Origin: a virus
IMG/VR virus record: IMGVR_UViG_3300020454_001183
Coordinates: 1 to 64,000 of that record
Strand: one strand, 5' to 3'
Length of the DNA: 64,000 nucleotides
The notes beneath the pieces are model-generated. The model made no database searches. It worked only from the letters and a program-made list of their open reading frames with translations, and was not told where the DNA came from. This document shows positions 44,497 through 54,050 of the stretch, one piece after another. Every line of letters starts with the position of its first letter. Within the stretch, counting starts at the first letter, position 1. The position numbers and the translations under genes were made by a program.

Positions 44497-46842
44497 TTAT
44501 GCTGAGAACGATGCACCTGTTGGTAGAATGTTGAAATCAATTACTATGAATTCAGCCGTCTTAGTAGGTTGTAAAAATATTTGACCTGCTAAGATGTTTC
44601 TATCAATTACATCAGGAGTGTTGTTTGTCTCGTCCATCACCACTTTGAATGCGTATAACCCTTGTCTTTGTTGTACACCTTCTAAATAAGGTTGTACAGT
44701 GTTTATAAATCTGTTTCTAGTCTGTGCCGTATTTTGTTCGAATACTAAGAATCTTGAAGTACTTGCTACAAACTTTTTAACTTTAATCAACAATCTACGA
44801 ACATTGATTCTATCTAAAGCGGATGCTTTATCTTGCAATGTCTTTTGTCCAAATGCTACAATACCTTCACCAGGGAATGATGCGATTGGATTAACTTTGT
44901 TTTCATAAAGTGTATCTCTTTCAGCGTGCGTTAATCTGTTTAATACTGAAACTGCTCCTACGATTCCACCTCTGTTTAAACCAGCAGGTGCGAACCACTC
45001 AGCTGCTAATCTATCGTTAGCTGCAAATATACCTGGCATCAATACTGATGGTGGTACTGCGGTTAGTTTGTTTGTATTAATATCGATTGTTTTAACCCAA
45101 GGATAGTAAGAACCAACATAGTTAGAATCTACTGCATCTGCTTGAGTTGTTGCTTGTGCTATTGTATCATTTACTGAAGTTATATCTCCAATAAAGAATG
45201 CATCTTGTCTATCCTCTACCATATCAACAACTTTACCAAACACATAAGAGTGTAATCTTCTGATAACACCCGGTGCTGATACTAAGTTGATATCAAAGTC
45301 ATCAGGATTAGATACTGCGTTAATTGCTTTCACATATGCTACTGAACCACTAGCGGTTGAAGAAGATAAGTTAAATCCTTGCGAGTTACCTGCTGAGATA
45401 TTTGAACCTAATTTCTTTCTAATCGTTGGTGATACACCATCAAATCCACTTTGGAATGCCACAGTGAATTGTCTTTTTGCTATATCAACTGCAGATGAAC
45501 CAGTCATTTCATAAGATAGTTGTGAATCAAATGCGAATACTGAGTTTGAACCCGTTCCAGCGTTAGTAGGAATAGGTGATAAGTAATTAACATTATCAAT
45601 CTTAACAGTTGTTGTTTCCACATCTATACCAGAGTAATTTATCTTATTAGATGAAGTGTTAGAATCAGAACCACTCTTAAATGTTACAGGTGGTACGATT
45701 TTTTCTTCTGGTGAAAGTGAACTTACAACTGCTATTGGATTAACATATGCAGAGTGTCCAAATGGTGCTGCTGTAATTGGGAACGAACCTTCTTCACTAC
45801 ATTCTACATAGATGTATGAAGAGTAGTTAGCGTAATCACCAGTTTCAGTTTGTTTACCATTTGCATCAATACTTACAACTCTATCACCGATTACTTTCTT
45901 AATGTAATTAGGTGAAGCTGGGTCTAAGTTAACATTGTTGAATGTTTCTAATACATTCTTTCTCTTATCAGTATCACTAAATTTTCTAATCGCTACTGAG
46001 AATGTTGCGTAATCTGTAGCTGCTGAACTTCCTGCAGGTTTTACATTAAAGATAGAAATCTTAAACTCTTGGTTCGTATCAGTACCATGAGCTAATGTAT
46101 GGAATCTAAATAGATTGTGTCTTTCACCTGAGATAAGTTGTGATTGAATGTAAGGAGTAGTTGCTCTAGTAGTATCGAAATTCAATGCTTGGTCAGCTAA
46201 TGAAACTAATTCTACTTTAGAACCACTTTCTAAGAAGTATCCTGTTGCATCTGTAGCTCCTTGCTCAAAGTATTTATAAACATATGCGTTTTTACTTCCA
46301 AGCGGTGAGTCACCAAATACATCTGATATATCACTACCTGATGATGGTACAACTGATGCTGATACTGCAGTTCCTAATTCAGAACCACTAATGTTAAAAG
46401 TAGAAGAAGAAAGTTGACAACTGATTGAGTTTGTTGCTGATGGAAATCCAGTTGATTCAGTACCATTTTCAGTAGCAAATAATGCTCCTAATAATTGTCT
46501 ACCACCTCCACTACCAGATGCGTTACCTGATAATGAACCCGATACAACAATACCGACTGGGTCAACGTGAGTATATCCTCCAACATGTCCAACTCTAACA
46601 ATTGTTACAGTTCCTGCTTCTCTTAAATAATTTTGTACGGTATATCCTGTATAGTATGTTCCATCAGGTGTACCGAATATTTCTTCAAATTCTGATTGGG
46701 TATTTACGATTGTGGGTACAAATGCTGGTCCTTTCTTAAAAGGTCCAATCACTGCGGCTCCGATTTCTCCTATTCCTTGTGAAATAAAAGATAAATCATT
46801 CTCTCTTGTAAATACGCCAGGTGATACGATTTTTTCTGCCAT
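44497..46842 (-). CDS. gp18: tail sheath protein, gp18-like
   Basis: The 781-residue protein has the N-terminal contractile sheath signature VSPGVFTRENDLSF and GEIGAAVIGPFKKGPAFVPTIV, followed by the domain IFGTPDGTYYTGYTVQNYLREAGTV. The C-terminal region has SASKFVASTSRFLVFEQNTAQTRNRFINTVQPYLEG and FIVIDFNILPTGASF, the handshake arms. It is larger than T4 gp18 (659 residues) because of extra surface domains in the middle. It contracts to drive the tube through the envelope. Strong SD (AAAGGAG). Confidence 0.95.
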   Translation of the reverse strand: MAEKIVSPGVFTRENDLSFISQGIGEIGAAVIGPFKKGPAFVPTIVNTQSEFEEIFGTPDGTYYTGYTVQNYLREAGTVTIVRVGHVGGYTHVDPVGIVVSGSLSGNASGSGGGRQLLGALFATENGTESTGFPSATNSISCQLSSSTFNISGSELGTAVSASVVPSSGSDISDVFGDSPLGSKNAYVYKYFEQGATDATGYFLESGSKVELVSLADQALNFDTTRATTPYIQSQLISGERHNLFRFHTLAHGTDTNQEFKISIFNVKPAGSSAATDYATFSVAIRKFSDTDKRKNVLETFNNVNLDPASPNYIKKVIGDRVVSIDANGKQTETGDYANYSSYIYVECSEEGSFPITAAPFGHSAYVNPIAVVSSLSPEEKIVPPVTFKSGSDSNTSSNKINYSGIDVETTTVKIDNVNYLSPIPTNAGTGSNSVFAFDSQLSYEMTGSSAVDIAKRQFTVAFQSGFDGVSPTIRKKLGSNISAGNSQGFNLSSSTASGSVAYVKAINAVSNPDDFDINLVSAPGVIRRLHSYVFGKVVDMVEDRQDAFFIGDITSVNDTIAQATTQADAVDSNYVGSYYPWVKTIDINTNKLTAVPPSVLMPGIFAANDRLAAEWFAPAGLNRGGIVGAVSVLNRLTHAERDTLYENKVNPIASFPGEGIVAFGQKTLQDKASALDRINVRRLLIKVKKFVASTSRFLVFEQNTAQTRNRFINTVQPYLEGVQQRQGLYAFKVVMDETNNTPDVIDRNILAGQIFLQPTKTAEFIVIDFNILPTGASFSA

Positions 46843-46909: not shown

Positions 46910-47185
46910 TTATTTTTTTTCTTCTGTAGATGGTATAAATTCACCAGTTGTAGGTTCTATAGTGCCATCTCCATACTTTTCATTCAATTTTTTATATAAC
47001 TCATTTTCTTTTTCAACTAAGTTATCATGTTGTTCTTCTAACTTCTCTTCATCTAAATCAATTTGTGCATTTGCATTTCTTCTTCTGATTGCAATTCTAC
47101 CCAAATCAAAGAAAATTTGAGATGCTTCATTTCTAATTGAACTAATTTGTTCTAATTCTTCTTTACTTAACTTTTTGTTTGCCAT
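46910..47185 (-). CDS. small coiled-coil protein upstream of sheath
   Basis: This 91-residue protein is a predicted long alpha-helix with heptad-like Glu, Leu and Asn spacing (KEELEQISSIRNEASQIFFDLGRIAIRRRN), ending in an acidic Thr/Pro tail (EPTTGEFIPSTEEKK). No family is recognised. It is a single-gene unit with a class B motif upstream. Its place between the sheath and the fibre-region genes suggests a structural or assembly role. Confidence 0.7.
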   Translation of the reverse strand: MANKKLSKEELEQISSIRNEASQIFFDLGRIAIRRRNANAQIDLDEEKLEEQHDNLVEKENELYKKLNEKYGDGTIEPTTGEFIPSTEEKK

Positions 47186-47257: not shown

Positions 47258-48571
47258 CTATGGTTCAGAGAATGTAAATGTCAATGTTCCATAAGTTCCA
47301 GCTAAACCTTGGTCAATAGCTCTTACTCTGAAATAATAAGTACCATTACTTAAAGTAATACCTTGTCCAGGTAAACTGATACTGGTTGCTGACCATTCTG
47401 TTTCGTTTCCATTGGTTACAGGTGAGCTAAAATCAGAATTATTATCAATAGCCCAATCATAAGCCGTAATACCACCTGTTCCAACTGATGATGGTGCTGT
47501 CCAACTTAATACAAATGTACTATTATTCCATGTTATACTTGTTGGTGCACCAGGTGCTGCTAAATCAGTAAACGAATTAGTACCCTTATTGTGAGTTACA
47601 TATCCATTAACTAAATAAGTATCTTGCTCTTCTACATCTAAAGATACTATTTCAACATCAGATGATTCTAAATTTATAGATACTACATCTATTTCACTTA
47701 AAGAACCATCAACTTTCTTTATAAGTTTATCACCAATTTCTAACAACATTAATTCCTTAAACCTATATAACCCATCCGTAGCATCTTTAATTAACATAGG
47801 ATGCTCTCCAGTACCTTTTATTTCACCATCATTAATATTGTATATCTTATTACTAAATGAATAAGTTAAATTTACTACTTTTACATCTTTTTCTGTTTCT
47901 CCTATAGTATTTGATGACCATTCTAAGAAGTTTGAGTCTGAATCTTCCGATAAACCTGCTAATGAATAGCCCTTCAGTACATCTCCTTCATTTAAATCAC
48001 CAACTTCAACCATTGTTCCATCTGCTTTTTCTATAGGTGAATCAGACACCAAACAAAGTGCAGCTGCGTTTCCATCATATGAATCAACAGAATATACTGT
48101 TTTAGTTCTACTACTATTATAATTTGTAGCGTGGTCATTAAATCCATCTGCAAACTTAACACCTAATGTGTGAGATGTAGCACCAATTAATGCTGTTTGA
48201 GTACCAGCATTTTTCATTTCTCCAGCAGATATAGTTAATGAACCACTACCAGCTGCTGCTTGTGAATAGGATGCAGAGGTAAAATAAATAGTACCCCCAC
48301 CAGTTATACTCCAATCAAAATTTCTTTTTTTCTCTCTAATCTTTACAAATCTTCCACCATCCCCTCCAAATCCTAAAACATAATCCTCTGATGTGTTTTC
48401 AACAACATATGTAAATCCAGTAACTGCTCCTACACTATCTATTGCGAATGCTGACATCGATATTGGAGTTGCTGTACTACCTGCTACCGTACCCATTGAT
48501 TTGGTACTTTGGTCTGTAGCCGTTGCTAAATTGTTTAAAGATAAAGTATCTCCTGATGATAGTGTTGCCAT
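47258..48571 (-). CDS. structural protein with internal Hint (intein-like) domain and FN3 domain
   Basis: The 437-residue protein has three parts. Residues 1-172 form a virion-type beta domain with Gly/Ser/Thr-rich sequence. Residues 173-328 are a Hint domain: start Cys173 (CLVSDSPIEKADG), GDLNEGDVL, block B GTGEHPML with His257, and block F/G DTYLVNGYVTHN ending His327-Asn328. The next residue is Lys329, not the Cys, Ser or Thr needed for protein splicing, so it resembles a bacterial intein-like domain that may cleave or crosslink rather than splice. Residues 340-437 look like a fibronectin type III domain. Strong SD (TAGGAG). Confidence 0.82.
   Translation of the reverse strand: MATLSSGDTLSLNNLATATDQSTKSMGTVAGSTATPISMSAFAIDSVGAVTGFTYVVENTSEDYVLGFGGDGGRFVKIREKKRNFDWSITGGGTIYFTSASYSQAAAGSGSLTISAGEMKNAGTQTALIGATSHTLGVKFADGFNDHATNYNSSRTKTVYSVDSYDGNAAALCLVSDSPIEKADGTMVEVGDLNEGDVLKGYSLAGLSEDSDSNFLEWSSNTIGETEKDVKVVNLTYSFSNKIYNINDGEIKGTGEHPMLIKDATDGLYRFKELMLLEIGDKLIKKVDGSLSEIDVVSINLESSDVEIVSLDVEEQDTYLVNGYVTHNKGTNSFTDLAAPGAPTSITWNNSTFVLSWTAPSSVGTGGITAYDWAIDNNSDFSSPVTNGNETEWSATSISLPGQGITLSNGTYYFRVRAIDQGLAGTYGTLTFTFSEP
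47588..48055 (-). other. Hint/BIL-like domain, region encoding residues 173-328
   Basis: 156 codons from Cys173 to Asn328. All splice-associated blocks are visible: the first Cys, the block B His in T-G-E-H, the penultimate His and terminal Asn. No homing endonuclease is inserted (156 residues is mini-intein size). The downstream Lys at +1 makes self-splicing unlikely, so cleavage at one or both ends is the more likely activity. Confidence 0.78.
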
Positions 48572-48578
48572 AATTCTC

Positions 48579-49574
48579 CTATATGTTATAAATATTCAAT
48601 AATGAATCAATCCACAATTGTTTATCAGAATAATTATCAATCATATAGCTTTTAATTTTTTTGAACCAATGATTTTTTGTTTCGTATGTATCACTACATA
48701 TCTTATTATAAATATCTACAAATTCATTTTTAGATGAAACTCTGTATGGATATTCAAAATCTTTACACCAAGTTGTGTGTAAAATAGGTAGTTTTCCTTT
48801 ATCTACTGCTTCAAAAATACCATATCCAAATGGTTCTGATGTAAATGCTGAATGTGATACTCCCCAATCCATATTATAAAATTTATCTTTAAAGTTACCA
48901 TAATAATGATAAATTTTTGCTTTATCATAATTTCCACCAACCGCATTTTTCCAAAATGTGTTAAACTCAAAAGAGTTTGTAAAAATAAAACAATCTAAAT
49001 TTTCTAAATAATGTGGGTTTTTTCTACCTTCACATCTAGCAGCAAATCCTAATCTGTTTGATTTACTTAAAGGTAAATTGTGTTTAAATTCATAATAATT
49101 ATTTATTACTTCATTCTTTATCAGAATATCAAATAATCCCACCCATATAGAATGAGTTGCCCATTCATTTACTTCCTTTTCCCATTTTGAATCCAACCAC
49201 GGATGCCAACCAATTCTAGCATCTGTAACAACTTGTGATTTTAAAATATGGTCTACTGAGTTGTGTAATATATTTGAGTGAATTTTATCTTTGTTATTTA
49301 CTATAGCTTTCATTGGAGTATAATGTCCATGTAATATATTGATTCTTCTAGCTCCATCACATATCTTTTCAAATTCACCAACATTATCACCTTGCCAATG
49401 AGTTTCTATTGGAAATTCAAAATCTTCAAATCCTTTTGGTTTGTTTCGGTGGATTAGTAAAACTGGTCTTACTTTTAAATGTGGTACAATATTTTCTAAA
49501 AAATCATTTACCCACAAATCAGTTCCAGCGTTGACCCAAGGACCACCACCAGTTGTGTAATAAACATCGTACAT
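48579..49574 (-). CDS. glycosyltransferase in the tail-fibre region
   Basis: The 331-residue protein looks like a GT-B glycosyltransferase: MYDVYYTTGGGPWVNAGTDLW at the N-terminus is a sugar-binding loop, INILHGHYTPMKAIV is a strand-helix core, and HSAFTSEPFGYGIFEAVDKGKLPILHT is the donor-site helix with its glutamates. It is one base downstream of the 1491-residue fibre gene and eight bases before the Hint-domain gene. That position suggests glycosylation of fibre or appendage proteins, though the acceptor is unknown. Confidence 0.78.
   Translation of the reverse strand: MYDVYYTTGGGPWVNAGTDLWVNDFLENIVPHLKVRPVLLIHRNKPKGFEDFEFPIETHWQGDNVGEFEKICDGARRINILHGHYTPMKAIVNNKDKIHSNILHNSVDHILKSQVVTDARIGWHPWLDSKWEKEVNEWATHSIWVGLFDILIKNEVINNYYEFKHNLPLSKSNRLGFAARCEGRKNPHYLENLDCFIFTNSFEFNTFWKNAVGGNYDKAKIYHYYGNFKDKFYNMDWGVSHSAFTSEPFGYGIFEAVDKGKLPILHTTWCKDFEYPYRVSSKNEFVDIYNKICSDTYETKNHWFKKIKSYMIDNYSDKQLWIDSLLNIYNI
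48587..48596 (-). promoter_or_regulatory. class B-like motif, upstream of Hint-domain gene
   Basis: AATATTTATA on the minus strand 16 bases before the ATG, close enough to overlap the end of the upstream glycosyltransferase gene. One base differs from the class B core. Confidence 0.4.
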
Positions 49575-52500
49575 TTATTTGATTTTTGATTCTAACTCTT
49601 CTACTCTTTTGATAAGTTCTTTGTTTGATTCAATAAGTAGAGCTACTATCTTTTCGTATTTTACGGCTTTATATCCGTTATCTCTTGTTTCTACAATCTC
49701 TGGTAAAACTTTTTCTACCTCTTGTGCAATTACACCGATATCTTTTTTACCTTTGAATACTTCGTGCTTATCATTCCATACGAATGTGTTACCACTTAGT
49801 AATTTAATTTTTTCATTTGGATTCTCAATTGGTGTTATTAAATCCTTATATCTCTCATCCGAAGAAGCATATGCTACAACATCTTCACCAACATTAAGTG
49901 TTTTTGCGATACCAACACCACCATCTATTACTACAGTACCACTTGTTTTGGAAGTTGATTGTGTAGTACCATTAAAGTTAACTGTTCCAGCCATATCAGA
50001 ACCACCAGATGTTGTTTTGATTCTTTCAACATTATTGTACCTAAGTTCTGCATAGGTTGCTGATGTATTTCCCGTATCTGTACCTAATATTAATGTATTT
50101 TGGTTTGTACCACTTCCGTTTTCGTTTTGGAAATAAACTTCCCCACCATGTCTTGTTGATTTGAATAAAGTATCTGAACCGTCATCTTCAATTATAAAAT
50201 CAGCTCCAGTACCTAATTTTATAGTATCACTATCATTAAGTTGAATACCTGCGGTAAAAGTAGCTTCAGAACTAAATGTTTTAGCCCCACTAAATGTTTG
50301 AGTTCCACTTAAATGTGCTGTATCTGAATCTAAATTAGCTGATGGTAACACACCTGTTACATCTGCTGTTAAATCAATTTGATTTCTTGTAATTGTTTGT
50401 CCACTAATTGTTATATAATCAGGTGTACCACTTAAACTTACATTAGTTGAATTATCAGTTCCTGCAGCATCTACTCCTAAGTTTGTTCTTGCCCCAGCTG
50501 CATCTGTTGCACCAGTACCTCCTTTATTTACTGCTAAAGTACCAGTTGTTGAACCAATTGAAACTTGTGATGAACCCGATACTACCCCTCCAATCAATTC
50601 AGCTGAAATAGTATCACCAGTTAAAATCATATTAACTTCTGATGTATCGGATACTGCTAAGTTTGTATTACTACTTATATCAATAGATGATAAAGTTGCT
50701 AATGAACCCAATCCTAAATTATCCCTTGCATCACTTACAGAGTCTACATCATCTAAATTCTGTGCTGGTCTTAAAAAGTTACTTTGTAATTGAGTTGAAC
50801 CTGATATTACACCAGTTCCTCCGAATAGAGTTTCATCAGTTATACTACTACCCAATGATACAGATGTTCCACTAATTGTAATTGCTGAATTTGCTAATTT
50901 ACCATTTGCTATTGAACCTGCTAATTGTGAGTTAGTTATTGTACCACTTAAATTAGAAGTTTGATATCCTGTAGCGTCTGCTAAGTTGAAAGCTGGTGTA
51001 GAATCAGATGAACCTAAGTTTACGGATACTCCACCAAATGATACTGATTTATTAGAAATACTTGAACCATCAATTTGAGATGAACCAGAAACTACTCCAT
51101 TTGTAGCTGCTATTGAACCAGTAATACTAAAACCTGTTATACTACCTCCAGTAGTTGCGGCGATAATACTTCCACCACTATAAACAGTAAAGTCACCAGT
51201 TAAATCTCCACCAGCCGAAGTAGTTACTACTCTATTGTTACCTGCATATTTTAATCCAGCTGCGTTACTATTTGCGAATATTTTTTCTGTATTGTTTGTG
51301 TTGACTTTAAAAACATCATTTCCATTAAATCCAAAATTTGTGTTCGTATCACCTTGATGAAAAATAAATGAATCTAATTCTACATTTCCACTACCTTGAT
51401 TTAGAATAATATCTTCTAAAGTTAAACCACTAATTTGAGCCGCACCTGATATTATTCCACTACCTACCTGTTCAAATGCTGAAGTAAGTTGTGCTGAACC
51501 AGTTACTACACCAACTCCCCCAAATAAAGTTTCATCGGTGATTGAACCACCAAGTGATACAGATGTTCCACTAATGGTAATTGCTGAATTTGCTAATTTA
51601 CCATTTGCTATTGAACCAGCAAGTTGTGAATTAGTTATTGTACCATCTAATTCACTTGTTAAATATCCAGTTGCATCTGACAAATCAAATGCTGGTGTTG
51701 CATCTGAAGCTCCTAAAGCCACACTTACACCACCAAATGATACTGAACTATTACTAAGTTTAGAATTTGCTATTGAACCAGCTAAATCAGAATTTGTAAT
51801 AGAGCCAGATTGAATTCCACTACCACCAGTTACAGTTTCTAAAGATATTTGTGAAGAACCTGATACAACCCCACCGATTAGTTCAGCAGAAAGTGTATCT
51901 CCACTAAGAATCATATTTACTTCTGATGTATCTGATACTGCTAAGTTTGTATCATCACCAATATCAATAGTATTTCTTGTAATTTCTTGTCCACTAATTG
52001 TTATATAATTAGGTGTACCTGCTAAGGTTACATTTGTTGAATTATCAGTTCCTGCTGCATCTACACCTAAATTACTTCTTGCAGTTGATGCATTTGATAA
52101 ATCGGATAAGTTACTTGTTTTAGCTAACTTTCCAGCTACTACTGTTGTTAAAGAATCAAGTGCACCACTATCAGCGGCTAACGAAGCAGATATTTCACCA
52201 AGAGTATCAAATGCTGCTGGAGCATTTCCAACTAAATCAGTAAGTTCTGTTTGAACATAAGCCGTAGTTGCTATTTTTGTTGAATTATCATTTGAACTTG
52301 GTGTTGGTGCTGCTGTTGTTCCTGTAAATGTAGGGTCAGTAAACATTGTTGCTTTTGATTCATTTGTTACATTACCTAAACTTAAATTAGCTGCGGTTAG
52401 TGTTCTTGTTGAAACACTACCATTTGCATCTGTTACAAGTCCACTTGTATTTGTTGTTATATTGAAATCTAAATCAGAGATTACAGTAGCTCCAGTTAAT

Positions 52501-54050
52501 GCACCTGTATCAACATCTATATCATCACCAGCTAAGTTAGTTGGTAAAGTATAATTTACTGTTCCTGCTGCATCTACTCCAAGTGTTGTTCTAACTGCAG
52601 CTGCATCTGCATCATCTAATATTGTTTGTGCGAATGTTGTAGCAATTTGGTCTGAACCAGATACTACACCCTGTCCTAATTTTTTTGTAAATAAAGTATC
52701 TGATTCTGTTTCAGTATAATATCTACCATCTAAATTTACTGTACCAGCAGTAGCAGTAGTTACATGACCATTTGAGTCTAATTGAATATCTAAATCTTGT
52801 AATACAGTTCCATTTGAGTTATCTTGTGATATATCTGAACCTGCACTTATGTTTGGGTGAGCGGTTAAATATGAACCAGTTGCTGCATTTAGTGATGTAT
52901 TAGCATTTGATGCAGTAAATGTGTTTAATGATGTATTAGCATTTGATGCCGTAAATGTGTTTAATGAAGTATTTTTATAATCATCATCCACATTTAAAGT
53001 TCTTGTTGAAGCTATAGTACCACCACCATTTAAACCAGTACCAGCAGTTATAGAAACTGAGGAGTGGTCTATGTGTTCATTTGCTACGAACCCACTTAGA
53101 TTATCGTGAACAATTTCTGAATCAGTAGTTGATAAAGTATCACCAGTCAATGTAATACCAGTTCCACCAGCTAAGTTTGTATCATCAGATATATCTACTG
53201 TTGTTAAGTAAGAACCAGTTGCTGCGTTTAGTGATGTATTAGCATTTGATGCAGTAAATGAGTTTAGTGATGTATTTTTATAATCGGAATCAACATTTAA
53301 AGTTCTTGTAGATACTATTGTTCCACCACCATTAAGTCCTGTACCAGCAGTTATACTTACTCCACTATGGTCAATGTGTTCGTTTGCTACAAATCCACTT
53401 AGGTTATCGTGAACAATTGCACTATCATCAGTAGATATTGTGGCTGTACCTGAACCATCGAATGAGAAGTCAGCTATACCAGTTCCATCGGTAAGTGCAT
53501 TTGAAGTTGTACCAATTGTTGTGGATGTAAATGCGTTTGAACCTAATTCTCTTGTTCCAACTACATTTGAACCATTTATCATTAATGCGGTTGCTTCTGA
53601 GTTTTGTGCTGATAAATTAGTAAATTTTAAGTTTGTCGGTCCAATATTAACATTAGTACCTCTTTCTGTTGTGTCTGGGTCAGCTTCACCAATTTTAATA
53701 GTTGGTGAATTTATATGTAATGTTTGAGATTGTCCACCAACTAAGGCAGTTTTATTAAAGATAAAAAAGTTATCGTTAGCACTATCACCTACTATTTGTA
53801 AACTTCCCGTACCACTACCTAATACTACTTTAGAACCAGCTGAAGTTCCATCATTATCACTTAGTTGGATTGAACCTGTAGTTATAGAATCAGTAGTTAC
53901 TATATGTTGTATGGTAGCCGAACCATCGTTCTTTTCAAAGAATACTCTACCATCGTTTGTGTTTATTGCTATTTCACCTAAAGCAAGTTGTGAAGTAGTG
54001 GGTACTTTACCACTGGTTGATGAGCGTTTTAACTTTATTGTCTGTGCCAT
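49575..54050 (-). CDS. long tail fibre protein with S74 intramolecular chaperone
   Basis: The 1491-residue protein begins MAQTIKLKRSSTSGKVPTTS and continues LALGEIAINTNDG, an N-terminal module common to phage fibres (Mtd-like attachment). The middle is made of repeats such as SLNTFTASNANTS and GSIANGKLANSAITISG. The C-terminal 105 residues form an S74 self-cleaving chaperone: the Ser-Ser-Asp-Glu-Arg motif near 1396 (SSDERYKD), IGVIAQEVEKVLPEIV and a C-terminal coiled coil (ELIKRVEELESK). The chaperone trimerises the fibre then cuts itself off. No start motif other than the gene before it. Confidence 0.85.
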   Translation of the reverse strand: MAQTIKLKRSSTSGKVPTTSQLALGEIAINTNDGRVFFEKNDGSATIQHIVTTDSITTGSIQLSDNDGTSAGSKVVLGSGTGSLQIVGDSANDNFFIFNKTALVGGQSQTLHINSPTIKIGEADPDTTERGTNVNIGPTNLKFTNLSAQNSEATALMINGSNVVGTRELGSNAFTSTTIGTTSNALTDGTGIADFSFDGSGTATISTDDSAIVHDNLSGFVANEHIDHSGVSITAGTGLNGGGTIVSTRTLNVDSDYKNTSLNSFTASNANTSLNAATGSYLTTVDISDDTNLAGGTGITLTGDTLSTTDSEIVHDNLSGFVANEHIDHSSVSITAGTGLNGGGTIASTRTLNVDDDYKNTSLNTFTASNANTSLNTFTASNANTSLNAATGSYLTAHPNISAGSDISQDNSNGTVLQDLDIQLDSNGHVTTATAGTVNLDGRYYTETESDTLFTKKLGQGVVSGSDQIATTFAQTILDDADAAAVRTTLGVDAAGTVNYTLPTNLAGDDIDVDTGALTGATVISDLDFNITTNTSGLVTDANGSVSTRTLTAANLSLGNVTNESKATMFTDPTFTGTTAAPTPSSNDNSTKIATTAYVQTELTDLVGNAPAAFDTLGEISASLAADSGALDSLTTVVAGKLAKTSNLSDLSNASTARSNLGVDAAGTDNSTNVTLAGTPNYITISGQEITRNTIDIGDDTNLAVSDTSEVNMILSGDTLSAELIGGVVSGSSQISLETVTGGSGIQSGSITNSDLAGSIANSKLSNSSVSFGGVSVALGASDATPAFDLSDATGYLTSELDGTITNSQLAGSIANGKLANSAITISGTSVSLGGSITDETLFGGVGVVTGSAQLTSAFEQVGSGIISGAAQISGLTLEDIILNQGSGNVELDSFIFHQGDTNTNFGFNGNDVFKVNTNNTEKIFANSNAAGLKYAGNNRVVTTSAGGDLTGDFTVYSGGSIIAATTGGSITGFSITGSIAATNGVVSGSSQIDGSSISNKSVSFGGVSVNLGSSDSTPAFNLADATGYQTSNLSGTITNSQLAGSIANGKLANSAITISGTSVSLGSSITDETLFGGTGVISGSTQLQSNFLRPAQNLDDVDSVSDARDNLGLGSLATLSSIDISSNTNLAVSDTSEVNMILTGDTISAELIGGVVSGSSQVSIGSTTGTLAVNKGGTGATDAAGARTNLGVDAAGTDNSTNVSLSGTPDYITISGQTITRNQIDLTADVTGVLPSANLDSDTAHLSGTQTFSGAKTFSSEATFTAGIQLNDSDTIKLGTGADFIIEDDGSDTLFKSTRHGGEVYFQNENGSGTNQNTLILGTDTGNTSATYAELRYNNVERIKTTSGGSDMAGTVNFNGTTQSTSKTSGTVVIDGGVGIAKTLNVGEDVVAYASSDERYKDLITPIENPNEKIKLLSGNTFVWNDKHEVFKGKKDIGVIAQEVEKVLPEIVETRDNGYKAVKYEKIVALLIESNKELIKRVEELESKIK
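52870..53430 (-). repeat. tandem repeat of about 303 bases in fibre gene
   Basis: Two near-identical copies of about 101 residues containing NLSGFVANEHIDHS, SITAGTGLNGGGTI and NTSLN, plus an extra 36-base copy of LNTFTASNANTS at 52917-52975. It lies within the 49575 fibre gene and suggests expansion by unequal recombination. Confidence 0.8.

Follow-up and report, generated by a model that had tools for sequence, protein, structure and literature searches.

A Hint domain with an invariant +1 lysine in a predicted virion-appendage protein is paired with a glycosyltransferase gene in uncultured phages

Hint domains form a thioester at their first cysteine (Cys1) with the assistance of a block B histidine, and their terminal asparagine cyclises. 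Type A bacterial intein-like domains (BILs), which have no nucleophile at the +1 position, undergo cleavage and in some cases also ligation, by way of the amine that is set free (PMC4031507; PMC7664689), and splicing through a lysine side chain to an isopeptide bond has been reported for BIL2 of Tetrahymena (PMC8616854). The phage inteins that we found in the literature behave selfishly and interrupt terminases or enzymes of replication; within a partial coverage of the literature, no Hint domain in a phage virion protein, and none accompanied by a glycosyltransferase (GT), was found. The Hint domain described here lies in the 437-aa product of a gene (47258..48571, minus strand) of the IMG/VR virus record IMGVR_UViG_3300020454_001183. 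The whole record is 66.7 kb, and the window, i.e., the entire stretch of DNA analysed, comprises its first 64,000 nucleotides.

The virus is a contractile-tail phage: the window encodes a tail sheath, a tail tube, tail fibres with S74 chaperone domains, and a T4-like wedge-fibre connector, and the nearest sheaths from isolates are those of Microcystis phage Mel-JY01 and the Flavobacterium 'immuto' phages. Upstream of the Hint gene, at a distance of 7 nt, is a GT gene (331 aa, 48579..49574, minus strand), which is preceded by a tail fibre gene with an S74 chaperone domain (49575..54050, minus strand). Downstream are a syntenic gene for a conserved small protein of 91 aa (46910..47185, minus strand) and the tail sheath gene (44497..46842, minus strand). 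This order (fibre, GT, Hint, small protein, sheath, tube) recurs in the majority of loci, whereas in the group 2 loci the Hint-GT pair is found amid GT7 enzymes, LamG-GT7 fusions, methyltransferases, and a UDP-sugar dehydrogenase. Genes for a galactosyltransferase-like GT7 fused to Laminin_G_3, which are phage-encoded, were seen beside the pair in L066 (7894-9324), L070 (6777-8348), and L077 (5353-6936). PHROG 38766, annotated as 'virion structural protein', matches residues 169-329 of the 437-aa protein (E=1e-7). The tail-region setting suggested by a sequence-only reading of this DNA is thus borne out by the gene order with the sheath and S74 fibre and by the PHROG match, and we infer from homology and gene order that the ORF encodes a virion protein, putatively of an appendage.

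The Hint/BIL-like domain spans residues 173-328 (~156 aa; 47588..48055, minus strand), as judged by HMM, profile, and AF2 model. With single-sequence HMMs the call is sub-threshold (Pfam Intein_splicing, E=0.0023; NCBIfam intein_Nterm, E=0.011); a 10-sequence profile compared with solved BILs and inteins matched 6y75 (E=1.2e-9) and 2lwy (E=7e-8). In the AF2 model of the 437-aa protein (pLDDT 87, mostly >90 in the Hint part), residues 173-328 adopt a Hint fold, and the top structure match is BIL2 (6y75, E=8.7e-10, TM 0.80 on target); other matches are CthBIL4 (2lwy, TM 0.81) and the SspDnaB intein (1mi8, TM 0.78). The likeness to bacterial intein-like domains that had been noticed from the letters is therefore upheld by the model. 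Alignment placed Cys173 (48053..48055), the predicted N-S acyl shift nucleophile, in block A; His257 (47801..47803) in block B, T254-x-x-H257; and His327 (47591-47593) and Asn328 (47588-47590), at which cyclisation is predicted, in block G. These are followed by Lys329 (47585..47587), and all five residues, encoded on the minus strand, stand in the ORF exactly as the sequence-only reading had placed them. Across 86 diverse full-length homologues with a mean column identity of 33%, C173, G185, G196, N247, H257, E307, V313, H327, N328, and K329 are invariant (86/86), T254 is Thr in 85, and G330 is Gly in 82. Because the His, Asn, and Lys codons vary synonymously among homologues, the conservation reflects purifying selection and not recent copying. 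A chance resemblance to Hint domains is ruled out by the fold match together with the residue invariance. Frame-broken Hint genes were observed in L063 (3843-5194) and in L303/L418, in each case inside the Hint domain and by either a real change or an assembly error; in L063, a short stretch is repeated inside the domain. As in type A BILs, we found a Hint fold with Cys1 and the block B TxxH, a C-terminal HN without an obligatory Cys/Ser/Thr at +1 (Lys instead), no homing endonuclease insertion within the ~156 aa, a position between domains of a non-housekeeping protein, and variable C-exteins.

The Hint domain lies between an N-extein (residues 1-172; 48056..48571, minus strand), identified as a conserved beta-rich domain by the model and an ORF survey, and a C-extein (residues 329-437; 47261..47587, minus strand), which consists of a Lys-Gly linker and an fnIII-like domain matched by the Pfam family SusE (25.6 bits, cut-off 25.2). 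The N-extein is fused in frame to Hint in 304 of the 305 ORFs that have the same N-terminal domain, the exception being a frameshift inside Hint; such inseparability argues that the domain is not a selfish intein. The part that follows Lys-Gly varies: it is fnIII-like (SusE family) in the window and a Laminin_G_3 lectin in L276, and just 4-27 residues follow the Asn in L066-L073, L077, and L260-L263. Since the lysine is kept while the C-part is exchanged, it goes with the Hint chemistry and not with any single C-part. The earlier proposal that Hint parts the beta-rich domain from fnIII is correct for the 437-aa protein but does not extend to a conserved function, and fnIII release was rejected as the general core function, given how many relatives end 4-27 residues past the Asn. 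A pretoxin identity was likewise rejected, as no toxin domain follows Hint.

The +1 residue was surveyed with two scans that were baited with the GT gene alone and are therefore blind to the Hint sequence. HNK is present in 152 of the 155 loci recovered in total (117 distinct sequences), in a sample that is dominated by metagenomic contigs and in which kinship among sequences inflates counts; the remaining loci are either cut by contig ends (two) or broken in frame (one). Lys329 had been read as incompatible with standard splicing, and it is indeed non-canonical; however, it is not a lost nucleophile: it never varies across the hundreds of loci and is a plausible acceptor. Lysine also occurs in every one of the 43 distinct short tails (≤12 residues), none of which contains Arg (46 Lys and 0 Arg in 292 residues), and its position differs by lineage (+1, +2, +3, +4, or about +9). 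Lysine elsewhere in the tail is seen in other Hint proteins (VHDK, TFHDK, GKGE, AGKAP, YKEAY, and TDIVAQAEKT). When eight tail types are treated as independent and real C-termini serve as background, the chance of Lys in all short tails is ~1e-4. A composition-only background (~1e-27) was discarded as overly optimistic, because the actual C-termini of these loci abound in Lys, which is the last residue in 17.5% of C-termini in these AT-rich phages; the chance thus falls no lower than ~1e-4. The tails are thus suggestive, favouring a role for Lys without amounting to proof.

Hint proteins without Lys at +1 do exist, with Thr, Val, or Ala in Erwinia, Yersinia, and NCTB phages, and a small, unsystematic set of polymorphic-toxin Hints sampled from genomes had Q, C, A, or G but never Lys at this position. 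Two GT-adjacent Hint paralogues lack a tail altogether and stop at HQ or RQ. A second Hint protein is located upstream of the GT gene in L260, L261, L262, L263, L266, L068, L072, L077, and L079, where the tails are VHDK, VHGK, VHAK, TFHDK, or GKGE, or the protein has the tailless HQ/RQ end. Several further arrangements were observed: bacterial Hint proteins that end exactly in ...VHNK, with Lys last (L175, L176, L177, L351, and L356); Lentisphaerae proteins with tandem Hint domains and HNKG linkers between them, reminiscent of polyprotein processing (L169 and L171); and Flavobacterium C-terminal Hint proteins with HN[YFIVM]K tails, many of which have a Gly-rich linker before Cys1 (L154-L168).

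The GT partner gene and its obligate pairing with the Hint gene were missed by the sequence-only reading and are new here. No Pfam family scores above its cut-off for the GT protein; its AF2 model (pLDDT 92) has a GT-B fold, and the top 50 PDB matches are all glycosyltransferases. An EX7E-type motif (E247...E255), in which E247-P-F-G is invariant and Gln may stand in for the second E, follows the GT4 pattern, making the protein GT4-like. In the GT-bait scans, the Hint gene is adjacent in 75/75 close and 80/80 distant GT relatives, and the pairing holds down to 35-41% GT identity and with unrelated Hint C-parts, be it fnIII, a lectin, or an 8-residue tail. Viewed from the Hint bait, GT lies within -42 to +36 nt in every group 1 or 2 locus that has upstream sequence, except for one that is frame-broken. 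Among the 50,697 phage records of INPHARED, the GT occurs in a single one, the uncultured jumbo phage LR756508, where it adjoins a Hint protein ending in HNKH; the order is reversed and the N-part has no match to the N-extein profile, which indicates that the GT-Hint link outlives synteny. In L078 (3825-5480), a phage protein with Ig/LCCL domains terminates in a Hint with HNK, and no glycosyltransferase lies nearby. A search, run without a positive control, found no GT of this family in four bacterial genomes with Hint loci. GT distances correlate with N-extein distances given the sheath (partial r 0.59; Hint against its own N-extein, 0.47), and this co-variation beyond sheath ancestry hints that the N-extein is the GT target. 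Collectively, these results indicate that the GT and Hint genes form an obligate two-gene pair. The two genes could simply be inherited together, with no chemistry connecting them; we nevertheless consider it likely that the GT acts on the Hint-containing protein.

Taken together, the data point, on balance, to a domesticated, type-A-BIL-like autoprocessing domain whose thioester would be resolved by Lys329 and whose partner GT would modify the same appendage. That the Hint domain is autocatalytically active is very probable from its conserved residues. Cys173 would attack the preceding peptide bond, with His257 assisting, to yield an N-terminal thioester, which the invariant Lys329 would then resolve, most simply through its side-chain amine to give an isopeptide bond; alternatively, Asn328 may cyclise before the new alpha-amine of Lys329 takes the acyl group. 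The outcome would be an excised Hint domain and an N-terminal virion domain that is either joined to, or parted from, the Lys-Gly-led C-part, while the adjacent GT-B enzyme would modify the same appendage, most likely at the N-terminal domain. Lys329 is a plausible acceptor because Lys+1 is invariant and because BIL2 makes a Lys isopeptide bond. Acyl capture by Lys329 appears the most economical reading of the fixed Lys+1, and by analogy direct capture by one or the other of its amines is slightly favoured, the side chain specifically being a tentative assignment. That the GT and a self-splicing virion protein cooperate, such that an exchangeable adhesion part is joined through an isopeptide bond at Lys+1 in step with glycosylation, is a speculative extension.

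The main competitor to capture by Lys329 is that Hint cuts at its N-side, its C-side, or both without rejoining, Lys+1 merely favouring Asn cyclisation. Type A BILs do yield mostly cleavage products (PMC4031507; PMC7664689), and where the tail is 4-10 residues long, as in many homologues, ligation would add little beyond removal of Hint; however, a simple leaving group would not have to be Lys, and Lys+1 is invariant in the GT-linked family, with Lys at varying positions in the tails and Arg absent. Cleavage alone is therefore a possible but doubtful account of the locus, although nearly as likely as an isopeptide product. Transfer of the N-extein thioester to an external nucleophile, in the manner of Hedgehog, would leave the N-part covalently bound to its acceptor, for example a sugar or glycan that the GT synthesises or attaches, or a lysine in a different virion protein. 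It would fit the obligate GT pairing, the sugar-related company of the group 2 pair, the co-variation of GT with the N-extein, and the HQ/RQ-ending paralogues, which have no C-extein to join. Hog uses the N-S acyl shift alone (PMC7664689), whereas the block G His-Asn is fully conserved here, and no sterol- or sugar-binding module follows Hint in the short-tail forms; we regard such transfer as unlikely.

Less probable still is a catalytically silent Hint module that serves as a folding or assembly spacer in a protein that stays intact in virions. The placement of Hint between independently folded domains would suit a spacer, but Cys1, TxxH, and HN are invariant or nearly so in the diverse, 33%-identical homologues. 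Least probable by far is a mobile intein recently stripped of its homing endonuclease and +1 nucleophile, despite a fold and sequence like those of DnaB-type mini-inteins: no intein-free allele exists among the 305 ORFs, Lys takes the place of the +1 Cys/Ser/Thr of canonical class 1 inteins, and the domain occupies the same site across very distant relatives beside a fixed partner gene. It was the absence of intein-free alleles that led us to reject a mobile intein.

If the reading built on Lys329 is true, the locus would encode a phage part that processes itself and is possibly self-crosslinking and possibly glycosylated. Together with the invariant lysine, the constant company of one glycosyltransferase family suggests that the two genes act as a system for maturing or cross-linking the appendages of many uncultured phages from aquatic settings. 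Were Lys the acceptor, isopeptide protein splicing would extend from a ciliate to viruses, and protein ligation would gain a compact tool that needs no ATP and carries Lys in place of Cys/Ser/Thr at +1. The pairing also offers a testable function for a glycosyltransferase family outside all Pfam models.

Among known systems, BIL2 of Tetrahymena thermophila BUBL1 (6y75, 6tmm) is the best structural and profile match to the phage Hint, with which it shares Cys1, the block B His, the C-terminal HN, and a position between independent domains. BIL2 is reported to form a Lys side-chain isopeptide bond (PMC8616854); unlike the phage Hint, it resides in a ciliate polyubiquitin locus, has ubiquitin-like exteins, is zinc-responsive, and has no reported glycosyltransferase partner. 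Type A BILs such as CthBIL4 (2lwy) share the Hint fold, Cys1, the HN end, and the lack of a +1 nucleophile, but they belong to bacterial proteins and give mostly cleaved products, whereas the phage Hint is in a tail-region protein, its Lys+1 never varies, and a GT gene is its obligate companion. In Erwinia and Yersinia jumbo phages and phage NCTB, proteins annotated as tail or virion structural likewise have Hint close to their C-terminus; these differ in their +1 residues and in having unrelated N-parts (collagen-like or other), and no GT of this family was found near their Hint genes within the fetched flanks. Pretoxin-HINT of polymorphic toxins has weak Pfam PT-HINT similarity to the phage Hint, which differs from it in carrying fnIII, a lectin, or a short tail instead of a toxin and in its Lys+1 as against varied residues. 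In the Hedgehog Hog domain, a sterol-recognition region follows; here, HN is invariant and what follows is one of these same C-parts. Finally, the partner GT shares its predicted fold and EX7E-like motif with GT4-type GT-B enzymes (6eji, HepE, and PimA), from which it differs in reaching the cut-off of no Pfam family and in occurring only beside Hint genes.
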